Shown one piece after another: positions 20,294 to 25,759 of a DNA stretch of 64,000 nucleotides (within the stretch, counting starts at the first letter, position 1; each line of letters begins with the position of its first letter). Origin of the DNA: Balneolaceae bacterium (GTDB lineage: Bacteria; Bacteroidota; Rhodothermia; Balneolales; Balneolaceae). The translations under genes and the position numbers were made by a program. A model generated the notes under the pieces. That model saw only the letters and a list, made by a program, of their open reading frames with translations, was not told the origin of the DNA and did no database searches. Location of the stretch: assembly GCA_017640605.1 (NCBI GenBank), contig JAEPQH010000010.1:1-64000 (forward strand), written 5' to 3'.

Positions 20294-20301
20294 TATCTTT
20301 G
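20294..20301 (+). promoter_or_regulatory. Candidate -7 element of the his leader transcript
   Basis: TATCTTTG matches the Bacteroidota -7 consensus TAnnTTTG exactly. It ends four bases before the GTG of the His-rich leader ORF, the same spacing as at rlmN. A TTTC at 20270-20273 is a weak -33 candidate. If used, the leader peptide would be translated from a nearly leaderless transcript. Confidence 0.45.
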
Positions 20302-20305
20302 ATCT

Positions 20306-20377
20306 GTGAATTCAACATTACACCATACCTCATCTATCCATCATGATCGCCATTTGGGCCATCATCACGTGCACTAA
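20306..20377 (+). CDS. hisL: His-rich leader peptide of the histidine operon
   Basis: A 23-codon ORF starting with GTG and ending TAA, 70 bases before hisG. Nine of its residues are histidine: positions 6, 7, 12, 13, 16, 19, 20, 21 and 23, including an HHH run near the end. A peptide so rich in the pathway's end product directly upstream of hisG is the signature of ribosome-mediated attenuation. The match is by composition and position; there is no sequence identity with the enterobacterial leader. The GTG start is the only conventional start in frame before the His codons. If transcription starts later, a shorter peptide from TTG 20354 would still include four His. Confidence 0.75.
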   Translation: MNSTLHHTSSIHHDRHLGHHHVH

Positions 20378-20418
20378 TTCTACGCACTGTCATCAAGAGA
20401 ATTCACTATCTAATTTTT
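20306..20418 (+). promoter_or_regulatory. Candidate his attenuator with competing pairings
   Basis: GAATTCAC at 20399-20406 can pair perfectly with GTGAATTC at 20306-20313, the start of the leader ORF. The overlapping AGAATT at 20398-20403 can instead pair with AATTCT at 20376-20381, with CAC (20404-20406) added to GTG at 20369-20371. Only one can form. The second is nearer to the run TAATTTTT at 20411-20418 and could act as a weak terminator. Stems are AT-rich, so the exact mechanism is uncertain. Confidence 0.4.
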
Positions 20419-20447
20419 CCTACAACTCCTTTTACTAACCTAATTTT

Positions 20448-21329
20448 ATGAACCGCACGAAAGATTCTTCGACTTCATTACGCATTGCTATTCAAAAGAG
20501 TGGCCGATTAACCGACAAAACCATCAATCTTTTGCACGGGATTGGCATCGAATTCGACAATTATAAGCGAAATTTGATGGTTAAAACCCGCAATTTCGAT
20601 GTTGAACTGTTATTGCTTCGCGATGATGACATCCCTGAATATGTACAAGATGGTATCTGCGATTTAGGATTTGTTGGCGCTAATGAAGTCTTCGAGAAAG
20701 ATGCCGATGTTACCGTACTCAGAGGCCTGAACTATGGAAGATGCCGATTATCTATTGCTGCCCCAAAAAATGGTGGACTCATTGAAGCCTCTGATTTCGA
20801 GGGTAAGACCATTGCCACCAGCTATCCCTTTTTAACCGAAAAATTCTTCAAAGAACAAGGTGTTTCGGTTGACCTAGTTGAAATTTCGGGAGCTGTGGAA
20901 ATTACCCCACAACTAGAAGTAGCAGACGCTATTTCTGACTTGGTTTCTACCGGTGGAACACTTGTGGCAAATGGTTTAAAAGAACTGTTCACCATTTTGG
21001 AATCAGAAACCAAGCTCATCAAAACCAATAAAGAGTTATCGCCCGGAAAAGAGCAATTAATCGAGAAATTTCTGGTACGCATCGACGGGTATCAGGAAGC
21101 GAAGAAAAGCCGCTACATCATGATGAATGCTCCGGAGGATAAAATCGACTACATCAAAGAAATTATTCCTTCCATGAAAAGCCCAACCATTGTTCCGTTG
21201 GCCGAAACCAACATGGTAGCCATCCACACGGTAATTCCTTACGATAAATTTTGGCAAGTGATGGAAGAACTAAAAAGCGCCGGAGCAACCGATATTGTTA
21301 TGCTCCCTATTGAAAGCATGATTTTGTGA
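20448..21329 (+). CDS. hisG: ATP phosphoribosyltransferase (long form HisG)
   Basis: First enzyme of histidine synthesis, joining ATP and PRPP. The 293-residue length, with a C-terminal ACT-like domain ([31 protein letters not shown], about 215-290), marks the long, self-regulated form that needs no HisZ. Catalytic-domain landmarks are [20 protein letters not shown] and the PRPP-binding [14 protein letters not shown]. The family is feedback-inhibited by histidine through the C-terminal domain. Its stop overlaps the hisD start (TGATG). A His-rich leader ORF precedes it. Confidence 0.97.
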
Positions 21330-22618
21330 TGAAAACGTTTAACCTGAATTCCTTATCCGAACAGCAGCGAAGGCAGTTAATACAGCGTCCGAAAATGGAT
21401 TTCACCTCCATTTTTGGAATTGTTCAACCCATCATTGATGAAGTTGAGCAACGTGGCGATACAGCGGTGTTAGCATTCACAGAGCAATTCGATAATATCT
21501 CGTTGGAAAAGACGACCATTTCACCCAATGATTTGGAAACCAACCTGGAAGATGATGTTAAATCGGCCATTGATGTAGCGTTTTCGAATATAAAAGCATT
21601 TCACGAGGCACAGGTTCAGCCTTTGTTGGAGCTTGAAACCATGCCGGGAGTACGTTGCCGAAAAGTAATGAAACCGATTGAACGCGTAGGATTATACGTA
21701 CCGGGCGGAACTGCTATTCTTCCTTCAACGGCTATGATGCTGAGTATTCCAGCAATGATCGCAGGTTGTACGACCATCGTTCTCGCTACTCCACCAAATG
21801 CTGAAGGTCGGGTACCGGATGAGGTATTATACATCGCTCAAAAAGCAGGCGTTACTGATATTTTACTAGCCGGTGGCGCACAAGCAGTAGCCGCAATGGC
21901 ATTTGGAACGGAATCTGTACCAAAAGTGGATAAGATTTTCGGTCCCGGAAACCAATATGTAACCGCTGCAAAAATGATTTTACAGAACAGCGAAGCTCAA
22001 ATTGCTATTGATATGCCGGCCGGACCTTCAGAAGTATTGGTTATTGCTGATAAAACTGCCAATCCGGCTTATGTTGCTGCCGACCTACTTTCGCAAGCCG
22101 AGCACGGGGCAGATAGTCAGGTAGTGTTGGTTGCTATCTCAGGATTTGATGTGGATGTACTAAAATCAGAATTAACCAAGCAGCTTGATGCTCTTCCTCG
22201 TAAAGAATTTGCAAAAAAAGCATTGGATAACAGCTTCATAATTACCGTTGATTCAGTTCACGAAGCCATTCAATATTCCAACGAATATGCCCCAGAGCAC
22301 TTGATTATTAATATTGCTGATGCAGAATCTGTTTTGGATGAAATTACCAATGCAGGTTCCGTATTCTTTGGTGCTTTTACTCCGGAAAGTGTAGGCGATT
22401 ACGCTTCTGGAACCAATCACACGTTGCCAACTTATGGATATGCTCGTATGTATAGTGGTGTGAATCTTGCATCATTTCAAAAATCCATCACCATGCAAAC
22501 ACTTACAGCCGAAGGACTTCAACTACTTGGTCCAGCTGTTGAAAAACTTGCAGAAGCGGAGGGTTTGGATGCTCATAAAAATGCGGTAACGCTACGACTG
22601 AAGGATTTGAACAACTAA
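21329..22618 (+). CDS. hisD: Histidinol dehydrogenase
   Basis: Zinc- and NAD-dependent enzyme for the last two steps of histidine synthesis. Visible motifs are [17 protein letters not shown], the signature region [39 protein letters not shown] and [14 protein letters not shown] with its zinc and catalytic His residues. Length of about 430 is normal. ATG 21329 overlaps the hisG stop as TGATG; an adjacent GTG three bases upstream is the alternative. Translational coupling to hisG is likely. Confidence 0.97.
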
Positions 22619-22706: not shown

Positions 22707-23771
22707 ATGAAACGAACGTTCGATTTAAAAACACTGATCCGACCAAATATTCTTGATTTGAAGCCCTACCGAAGTGCGAGGGATGATTTTGACTCTGGGA
22801 TTCTGCTTGATGCTAATGAAAATTCTTTAGGTGCTCCTTTCGAAAATGATCTGGAGTTACATCGTTACCCCATGCCCTATCAGGAAGAACTCAGAGCACG
22901 AATTGCAGCGTTTAGAAAAGTTGATTCCGAAAACATCTTTACTGGTGTTGGCAGTGATGAAGCCATTGATTTACTGTTTCGCATATTTTGTGTACCGGGA
23001 TCAGACGAAGTACTGATTACTCCACCCACTTATGGGATGTATAAAGTATCTGCAGCTATCAATAATGTGCAAGTTCAGCAGGTTTTACTTACTCCTGATT
23101 TTCAGTTACAGGTAGCAGAAACTCTGGAAGCTGCTACAGATAAAACGAAGATCATTTTCCTTTGTTCACCAAATAATCCTACTGGTAACAATCTTCGCAC
23201 TGAGGATATACTAACCATTGTGAAGAATTTTCCCGGAATTGTAGTCGTAGATGAAGCCTATATCGACTTTAGCGAACAAGAGAGTTTTGCAACGCAGGTG
23301 AAGAACTATCCAAATCTTGTAGTGTTGCAAACTATGTCGAAGGCGTTTGGGCTTGCGGGCATTCGTTTAGGTATTGCAATTGCCAGCGCTGAAATCATAC
23401 AATATATGATGAAAGTAAAAGCGCCCTATAATGTAAATAAACTCACTTCTCAAGCCGCTCTTCGTGGATACTCGAACATTGAAGGAATGCAGATAAAAGT
23501 AAAAGAACTACTAAACGAGCGGGAACGCGTAATTGATGAACTCTCATCGATGGAAAAAATCGAGAAGATCTACCCCACCGATGCAAATTTTTTGATTTTT
23601 AAAGTGGATGATGCACTTGAAATTTATCAGAAACTGGCAACCGAGGGCGTGATTGTACGATATAGAGGCAATGAACCTCACTGCGAAAATTGTCTTCGAT
23701 TGACAATCGGCAGCGTAGATGAAAACGATGCTTTTCTTCAAGCGCTCCGTAATATTCTTCAATCTGATTGA
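22707..23771 (+). CDS. hisC: Histidinol-phosphate aminotransferase
   Basis: Fold-type I PLP enzyme for imidazole acetol-phosphate to histidinol-phosphate. The PLP Lys is in TMSKAFGLAGIRLG (Lys 212). Also seen are LDANENSLGAP, the NNPTGN loop, VVDEAYIDF, and the C-terminal Arg of NCLRLTIGS that binds the substrate phosphate/carboxylate. The length of 354 is typical. A gap of 88 bases separates it from hisD. Its last 13 bases overlap the end of the convergent DoxX-like gene. Confidence 0.96.
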   Translation: MKRTFDLKTLIRPNILDLKPYRSARDDFDSGILLDANENSLGAPFENDLELHRYPMPYQEELRARIAAFRKVDSENIFTGVGSDEAIDLLFRIFCVPGSDEVLITPPTYGMYKVSAAINNVQVQQVLLTPDFQLQVAETLEAATDKTKIIFLCSPNNPTGNNLRTEDILTIVKNFPGIVVVDEAYIDFSEQESFATQVKNYPNLVVLQTMSKAFGLAGIRLGIAIASAEIIQYMMKVKAPYNVNKLTSQAALRGYSNIEGMQIKVKELLNERERVIDELSSMEKIEKIYPTDANFLIFKVDDALEIYQKLATEGVIVRYRGNEPHCENCLRLTIGSVDENDAFLQALRNILQSD

Positions 23772-24166
23772 GGTTTTAAACTACTGCCAATGACCGGAAT
23801 ATCGCCCCGATTAGCCCATAATAATATTGCCGATGAAATGAATACTATTAATGCCATTACGAATAGTGTGCCTCCATCATCTTGCACAACAATGCCTAAA
23901 ACTGTTAAATGGCTAATAATTGCTCCTGCCATCACACCAAGCGCAATAAGTGCCCCGAGCCAGGTTGTTCGTGGTATAAGTAGTAAGATCGATGCAACCA
24001 ATTCTGCAATACCCGACGAATATCTGCCGAAGGGTTCAAGGCCAACGGTTTCAAAAATAAATATACTTTCAGGTGCTCCTGTAAATTTGAAAAATAATGT
24101 TTGCAGCATGATGAATGCGGCTACAAGACGTAATATCCAATAGAAAATGTGTACTTTTGACTTCAT
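23759..24166 (-). CDS. DoxX-like small membrane protein
   Basis: About 135 residues with four hydrophobic segments: FYWILRLVAAFIMLQTLFFKFTG, GIAELVASILLLIP, LGALIALGVMAGAIISHLTVLGI and LFVMALIVFISSAILL. The first segment ends with the F-K-F-T-G pattern, and G-I-A-E-L-V-A-S-I-L-L follows, as in DoxX/DUF417-type proteins. Function unknown. I start at the second in-frame ATG (24166) because MKSKVHIFYW is a normal membrane-protein start; the first ATG is at 24190. It lies reversed inside the his gene run, between hisC and hisB, and overlaps hisC tail to tail. Confidence 0.8.
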   Translation of the reverse strand: MKSKVHIFYWILRLVAAFIMLQTLFFKFTGAPESIFIFETVGLEPFGRYSSGIAELVASILLLIPRTTWLGALIALGVMAGAIISHLTVLGIVVQDDGGTLFVMALIVFISSAILLWANRGDIPVIGSSLKPQSD

Positions 24167-24269
24167 AACGTATTTGATTTTGTTGCACACAAAGTAGCAC
24201 TGGTACTCAATTAATAATTCACGAAATCATAACAATTCGAACACGGTTTTATCTTCAAACTCACAACTC

Positions 24270-25163
24270 ATGAACATCTGGATACACCCTGAAGTTTTCG
24301 CACTATCTCCCTCAAAATTTCTACCAAAAGGAATGGTTCATTTTTGTTCTGTGCTGATGGGAGAAGATTTTCAATTCAATTCTGATTCGGAATCACTTAA
24401 AAAAAAACAACGCGCCCAACTCGAAATCGAGGAGCTTTTCACTGATTTTGAAGAAACCGAAAAACACGGAATAATAGAATTTGATAAGAGTGAAGGAAAG
24501 CTGCTGTTATGGCTGGGAGAAACTACCCTAGCTTCCGGCTATGATTTTTTTGAGTTATTGTCTTCCTATCAAAAAGGAAAAGAGCGAACGGCAAGTTTAT
24601 CGAGAACTACGAATGAGACTGATATTTCGATTAGTCTAAACCTTGATGGAACCGGTAAAAACGAAATAAATACCGGACTCAAGTTTTTCGATCACATGCT
24701 CGAACAAATTGCACGGCATGGTTTTGTTGATCTCAACCTCCGTTGCGATGGCGATTTGGAAGTGGACGAACATCATACTATTGAAGATGTGGCCATTGCA
24801 TTGGGTGAATGCATTACCAGCGCTTTGGGTGATAAAAAAGGCATCGAGCGATATGCGTTTGTATTACCTATGGACGAAACGCAGGCCACAGTTGCCATGG
24901 ATTTATCCGGCCGACCTTATTTGGTATTCGAAGGTGAGTTTAACCGAGAGTATGTTGGGGATATGCCTACAGAAATGGTAAAACACTTTTTTTACAGCTT
25001 AGCGATGCACCTGAAAGCGACCTTACAAATTGAATTCAAAGGCGATAATGATCACCATAAAATTGAAGCTATTTTCAAAGGATTTGCACGGGTTTTGAAA
25101 ACTGCGGTTGAAAAGAATCCCCGCATCAAAAATATGATTCCAAGCTCGAAAGGTAGGCTCTGA
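24270..25163 (+). CDS. hisB: Imidazoleglycerol-phosphate dehydratase with unusual N-terminal extension
   Basis: Residues 103-297 are a complete manganese-dependent dehydratase: [85 protein letters not shown]. Residues 1-100 are extra. In bifunctional HisB this space holds a HAD histidinol-phosphatase, but no DxDGT motif or HAD pattern is visible here and the segment is too short. So the protein is probably dehydratase only, and the extension is of unknown role. An internal start without the extension is possible, yet the upstream frame stays open from the ATG with normal codon use. hisH overlaps as TGATG. Confidence 0.93.
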
Positions 25164-25759
25164 TGATCGCACTAATTAAGTATCGTGCCGGTAATATTGC
25201 TTCGGTTTCTAATGCCTTGGAACGTCTTGGCGTTGATTTTTATCTCGCAGAAACAACTGAACAACTCGATAAAGCTGACGGTATAATCTTTCCGGGAGTT
25301 GGCCATGCTTATTCTGCCATGGAATCACTTAAGGAAAACGGAATCGATGCATGGTTGAAAAGCACTAAAAAACCCGTTTTGGGTATTTGTGTGGGAATGC
25401 AACTGTTATTCGAATCCTCTACTGAAGGTGATACTAAAGGACTCGGAGTAATTCCAGGAAAGTTGCTAAAGTTCGATGCTTCCAAAGAGAAAGTGCCACA
25501 CATGGGCTGGAATTCTGTCCGTAAACAAGCCGACCACCCTTTATTGCAGCAAATCAGCAATGATGATTTCCTGTATTTTGTGCACAGTTACTATGCACCT
25601 GAAAATGAGTATGCTGTTGCAACGTGTGATTATATCCATCCATTTACGGCGGTAGTTTCTAAAGACAATTTTTTTGGAGTGCAGTTTCATCCGGAAAAAT
25701 CAGGCAAATTAGGCGCTCAAATCCTTCAGAATTTTGTGGATTACGTGTATTCACAATAG
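25163..25759 (+). CDS. hisH: Imidazole glycerol phosphate synthase, glutaminase subunit
   Basis: Class I glutamine amidotransferase that feeds ammonia to HisF. The nucleophile is in GICVGMQLLFES (Cys 76). The oxyanion segment PGVGHAYSAME and the catalytic VQFHPEKSG His-Glu are present. Length of 198 is typical. The start overlaps the hisB stop. Its partner hisF is not in this window. Confidence 0.97.
   Translation: MIALIKYRAGNIASVSNALERLGVDFYLAETTEQLDKADGIIFPGVGHAYSAMESLKENGIDAWLKSTKKPVLGICVGMQLLFESSTEGDTKGLGVIPGKLLKFDASKEKVPHMGWNSVRKQADHPLLQQISNDDFLYFVHSYYAPENEYAVATCDYIHPFTAVVSKDNFFGVQFHPEKSGKLGAQILQNFVDYVYSQ

Follow-up and report, generated by a model that had tools for sequence, protein, structure and literature searches.

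A histidine-rich leader ORF before hisG in Balneolales and its candidate coupling to Rho-dependent termination

The his operon and its leader ORF

The window, the whole stretch of 64,000 nucleotides analyzed here (Balneolaceae bacterium, contig JAEPQH010000010.1), carries a his operon in the order hisG, hisD, hisC, a small opposite-strand gene, and then hisB and hisH. The long-form hisG (20448..21329, with PF01634 and HisG_C), hisD (21326..22618), a hisC-like aminotransferase gene (22707..23771), hisB (24270..25163, with the IGPD domain from residue 135), and a hisH-like glutamine amidotransferase gene (25163..25759) all lie on the plus strand. The nearest named matches to HisG are in Balneolaceae metagenome-assembled genomes (MAGs; 92 to 86% identity), and further ones reach down to Gracilimonas (78 to 79%). 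Judged by eye, the small minus-strand gene between hisC and hisB (23759-24190) resembles a DoxX-family membrane protein gene. The HisB N terminus has ∼130 additional residues that lack a Pfam match (24270-24670); an unexplained, shorter domain has been noted in Balneolota HisB too (PMC8305728). No His leader was seen by eye before hisB in the window.

Upstream of hisG lies a leader peptide ORF, hisL (20306..20377, plus strand), which starts with GTG and encodes MNSTLHHTSSIHHDRHLGHHHVH. It comprises 23 codons, nine of them for histidine, with three consecutive histidines at codons 19 to 21, and 70 nt separate its stop codon from the hisG start at 20448. The initial annotation had described an ORF of this size, composition, and position, and the description is exact. 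In order, the histidine codons (CAC CAT, CAT CAT, CAT, CAT CAT CAC, and CAC) are preceded by GTG AAT TCA ACA TTA, ACC TCA TCT ATC, GAT CGC, TTG GGC, and GTG, respectively, and TAA closes the frame. Dinucleotide shuffles of the 260-nt region upstream of hisG never yielded nine histidines in an ORF of at most 40 codons (0/2000); the nine-His ORF is not a product of chance. Genome-internal controls were drawn from 442 kb of the same genome, which held one further ORF of 15 to 40 codons with at least eight His codons. That ORF has a TTG start, and as a candidate second nine-His leader it was rejected as a chance derivative of a CTCACAC-type repeat.

A −7 box, TATCTTTG, that exactly matches the Bacteroidetes sigma-A motif TAnnTTTG occupies 20294..20301 (plus strand), 4 nt short of the leader GTG. 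A TAnnTT box ending 4 to 5 nt before the leader start was found in 51 of 55 leaders versus 10 of 324 control genes, and the strict −7 box at the same spacing was found in 24/55 versus 1/324; the choice of start codons favored such spacing, so both contrasts are somewhat inflated. In F. psychrophilum the −7 box lies at −12 to −5 (PMC9723704), and the same spacing here predicts the transcription start at the start codon itself, 20306. On this comparison the hisL mRNA is probably leaderless. Leaderless or near-leaderless mRNAs make up a few per cent in F. psychrophilum (PMC9723704) and in B. thetaiotaomicron. Between leader and hisG, 57 of the 60 leaders have no consensus −7 box.

Conservation and structure of the leader

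HisG was searched for at the levels of family, order, class, and phylum, after which the regions upstream of hisG were read. The best upstream ORF in 55 Balneolaceae leaders has a median of nine His codons (minimum, 4), compared with 1 on the reverse strand and 2 in shuffles. Across the ∼15 Balneolaceae genera represented, both the ORF and the His codons in it persist amid drift of the sequence itself, including peptide length, loop length, and spacing. The first histidine is codon 6 or 7 in most of these leaders, with tyrosine instead in a few. Given a conserved ORF, a first histidine so placed, and, in nearly all leaders, no consensus −7 box between leader and hisG, a histidine-sensing leader peptide is the best reading, and the proposal that hisL acts as the histidine sensor through ribosome stalling is well supported by sequence comparison.

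His leaders were also found in Balneolales families f2 and f5 and part of f4, in other Rhodothermia, and in many Bacteroidia. Nor is this leader a first for the FCB group: such leaders are widespread in Bacteroidota, and clues to leader-peptide attenuation before amino acid operons, together with a structured element before hisG, have already been published for F. psychrophilum (PMC9723704). Balneolales family f3 retains hisG and has no leader in most of the genera read, which indicates that the leader is dispensable on an evolutionary time scale. In contrast with the rest of f3, two genomes (L091 and L093) have a His-containing ORF before hisG, the end of which itself folds into a terminator-like hairpin with a U-tract. 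Two f4 genomes (L079 and L086) carry a different conserved short ORF before hisG (...SRSFGGCNHH...) with few histidines. A divergent HisG (∼44% identical), perhaps acquired from elsewhere, occurs in a few small genomes (L075, L076, L077, and L078), where no comparable His-rich leader was found.

The leader fold is stabler than that of shuffled sequences (z = −4). Folding and covariation define a hairpin, H1, within the His-rich coding region (20343..20365, plus strand). With pairs counted in codon register, the H1 arms are paired in 138 of 147 cells, with A-U/G-C and U-A/G-C/C-G exchanges, and shuffled arms match in fewer than 1 in 1000 cases. The idea that H1 is extra stable beyond what the peptide imposes found no support; its arms covary, although its stability does not exceed the synonymous-codon null. 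A second hairpin, H2 (GTGC...GCAC; 20369..20387, plus strand), surrounds the leader stop codon, and its 3′ arm lies in noncoding RNA. GTGC and GCAC occur in 26 of 47 leaders, GCAC occurs in 1 of 60 control segments (Fisher p ∼1e-4), and H2 pairing exceeds that of shuffled spacers. A third helix, P1, would join the start codon region (GTGAATTC, 20306..20313) to GAATTCAC (20399..20406), both on the plus strand. P1 pairing exceeds that of cross-genus swaps (Fisher p ∼0.01; controls not significant); as a family-wide element P1 was rejected, being supported in only a few genera (g1, g6, g13, g18, and g20) and unsupported in g4 and g7.

Missing terminator and spacer composition

We scanned from the leader to hisG +40 for intrinsic terminators, defined as a hairpin followed by a U-tract. 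Strong terminators lay between leader and hisG at 22 of 30 Bacteroidia loci and 5 of 6 other Rhodothermia loci (Rhodothermales), and two f4 loci retain one at hisG. Over the same interval 59 of 65 Balneolales loci had none; the remaining 6/65 have terminators that are mostly weak, nonhomologous, and at unrelated positions. The scan found none at hisG in the window, and there is thus no terminator for an antiterminator to compete with; in the folds, H1, H2, and P1 can coexist. An Rfam covariance-model scan, with E values up to 5, returned no His_leader match.

The trpE leader of the same genome (L232, G000:C26, upstream of the trpE match at 197598-198356) encodes a peptide with three consecutive tryptophans, MQIKGLNKTAWWWPVDESTAGLLH, followed, as read by eye, by a hairpin and U-run, and a similar WWW leader and terminator were seen by eye in most of the relatives read; the arrangement is that of a classic tryptophan attenuator. 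Because the same genome has an intrinsic terminator at trpE, the absence of one is specific to his. No leader was obvious by eye before leuA. The initial annotation had proposed the same logic as in Gammaproteobacteria. A histidine-sensing leader peptide stands, by comparison; the output element that defines the gammaproteobacterial attenuator, an antiterminator competing with an intrinsic terminator, does not, since it is missing here, although relatives have it and trpE of this genome has one. The earlier interpretation is right in kind and wrong in detail.

The untranslated spacer between hisL and hisG (20378..20447, plus strand) is C-rich and G-poor (C, 26%; G, 6%) and is proposed here as a region for Rho loading and tracking. 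Over Balneolales the spacer shows similar values (C, 26%; G, 7.5%). The median C/G ratio in the 65 nt before hisG is 3.6 in the terminator-less families f1 and f2, 1.0 in leaders that bear a terminator, and 1.7 in f3, without the leader; rank tests on these ratios are significant, but these genomes share ancestry, and a single change may lie behind the difference. The bias of C over G is present in all f1 genera scored. Within this genome, 4 of 151 control upstream regions match the C/G ratio of the window spacer, and ∼1.6% of random 142-nt stretches have a C-rich bubble equally strong. The C-rich spacer may serve only to keep initiation at hisG unstructured.

Candidate mechanisms and known systems

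The off-switch probably differs from the usual hairpin and is perhaps based on Rho. Rho is favored by the untranslated C-rich, G-poor RNA, the lack of a hairpin terminator, and the presence of Rho in these genomes, the last being weak evidence, since it is encoded in this genome and in all 80 sampled genomes of the phylum (80/80). We lean, if only slightly, toward ribosome-mediated histidine sensing coupled to Rho-dependent termination. From the ORF and its conservation, the −7 box, H1, H2, the missing terminator, and the spacer composition, each read directly, we infer a start site, ribosome stalling, Rho action, and a direction of control, as follows. Transcription would begin at or beside the leader GTG, and ribosomes would bind directly at the leaderless 5′ terminus. 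When histidyl-tRNA is abundant, they would complete the leader and depart; H1 and H2, together with P1 in this genus, would then form and hide the start codon, and the leader and spacer RNA, rich in C and poor in G, would be exposed, allowing Rho to load and halt RNA polymerase either upstream of hisG or early within it. With histidyl-tRNA scarce, ribosomes would stall at the nine His codons and queue there, mask the leader, and block Rho loading, so that hisGDC would be transcribed. Regulation by Rho would thus have the right sign. His codons (CAY) are free of G, and the leader would therefore extend a possible Rho site that stalled ribosomes would hide. It is a tentative but tenable further step that the ancestral his attenuator of Balneolales exchanged its intrinsic terminator for Rho, with the G-free His codons of the leader and the spacer forming a loading site masked by stalled ribosomes; sensor ORF and terminator signal would then be one RNA.

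Classic intrinsic attenuation through a weak or unusual terminator is an unlikely alternative. Here H2, or a three-way junction closed by P1, would act with loose U-tracts in the spacer to release polymerase, and a ribosome stalled at the first histidine would cover the 5′ arm of P1 and prevent release. The regulatory sign would again be correct, several genera have U-rich stretches after P1 or H2, and the excess of P1 pairing over cross-genus swaps is in keeping with it. However, only 6/65 Balneolales pass a scan that detects strong terminators in relatives, H2 stems are often just 4 to 5 bp, the U-run in the window lies 8 nt beyond P1, and g4 and g7 lack support for P1. We consider it a shade less likely still that stalling in the leader acts not on transcription termination but on hisG translation or on the stability of the mRNA. 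An mRNA can be protected by a ribosome that has stalled at its 5′ end, and this leader, which probably starts without a 5′ untranslated region, has structure near its stop codon. In E. coli, toiL couples stalling in an upstream ORF (uORF) to topAI translation and then to Rho (PMC12121999). Against such control at hisG, no conserved helix that would sequester the start of hisG was observed, and in most minimum free energy (MFE) folds that start lies in unstructured spacer. His-rich peptides can bind metals, and family f3 lost the leader and kept hisG, as might be expected if the ORF regulated nothing and were either a relic or a micropeptide that binds metal. That reading is very improbable: the ORF is consistently placed before hisG across many families, it accompanies terminators in Bacteroidia, and the number and placement of its histidines suit a sensor.

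The hisL leader of enterobacteria is the model system, and a hairpin terminator is used also by S. meliloti trpL, taken up below. Like hisL of E. coli and Salmonella (RF00514), the Balneolaceae leader has a short ORF rich in His codons just before hisG of a his operon and hairpins in its RNA; it differs in its lack of an Rfam match, in the terminator and antiterminator not found by our scans, in a probably leaderless GTG start, and in a Bacteroidetes-type promoter. It shares gene, His-run peptide, and phylum with the hisG leaders of Bacteroidia and Rhodothermales and the hisG 5′ element of F. psychrophilum (PMC9723704), and presumably the sensor as well, whereas most Balneolales are without the U-tract terminator (∼−9 to −21 kcal/mol) of the Bacteroidia and Rhodothermales leaders. 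The Mycobacterium cys leaders (PMC1262725), for which Rho action was proposed, offer a parallel: the peptide is rich in cysteine, the amino acid of its operon, a terminator hairpin is missing, and the spacer has pyrimidine motifs; there the motifs are not conserved and the authors called the prediction weak, whereas here the C/G bias extends to all f1 genera scored. Ribosome occupancy of a short ORF decides Rho-dependent termination in E. coli tnaC-tnaA and toiL-topAI, and the link from uORF stalling to Rho has been shown for toiL (PMC12121999); the signal there is free tryptophan or an antibiotic and not the charging of tRNA with a biosynthetic product. Attenuator peptides with a leaderless or near-leaderless start have been described for C. 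glutamicum ilvBNC (PMC11857589) and S. meliloti trpL (PMC7298713). A hairpin at the 5′ end covers the start codon in ilvBNC, as P1 would here, but a hairpin terminator is used (PMC11857589).

Attenuation by His leaders and a flavobacterial hisG leader element are thus already known, and the terminator-less variant in Balneolales is new. In a study devoted to the his genes of this superphylum, attenuation comes up once, with reference to enterobacteria (PMC8305728), and we found little in the open-access literature on Rho in amino acid attenuation in Bacteroidota. A clade that seemingly kept the sensor of the textbook attenuator and lost its hairpin terminator, alongside sister clades that still have the terminator and another in which the entire leader was lost, lets one ask how termination mechanisms are swapped without losing regulation and whether amino acid attenuation in Bacteroidota uses Rho. 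A second Rho paralog was rejected as an explanation, since its presence in other Rhodothermia also makes it nondiscriminating. Two paralogs are encoded in this genome by open frames of 548 and 421 amino acids (L293 and L294; G000:C8 and C14); two were likewise found in all Balneolales tested and in most sampled Rhodothermia, and one in most sampled Bacteroidia.
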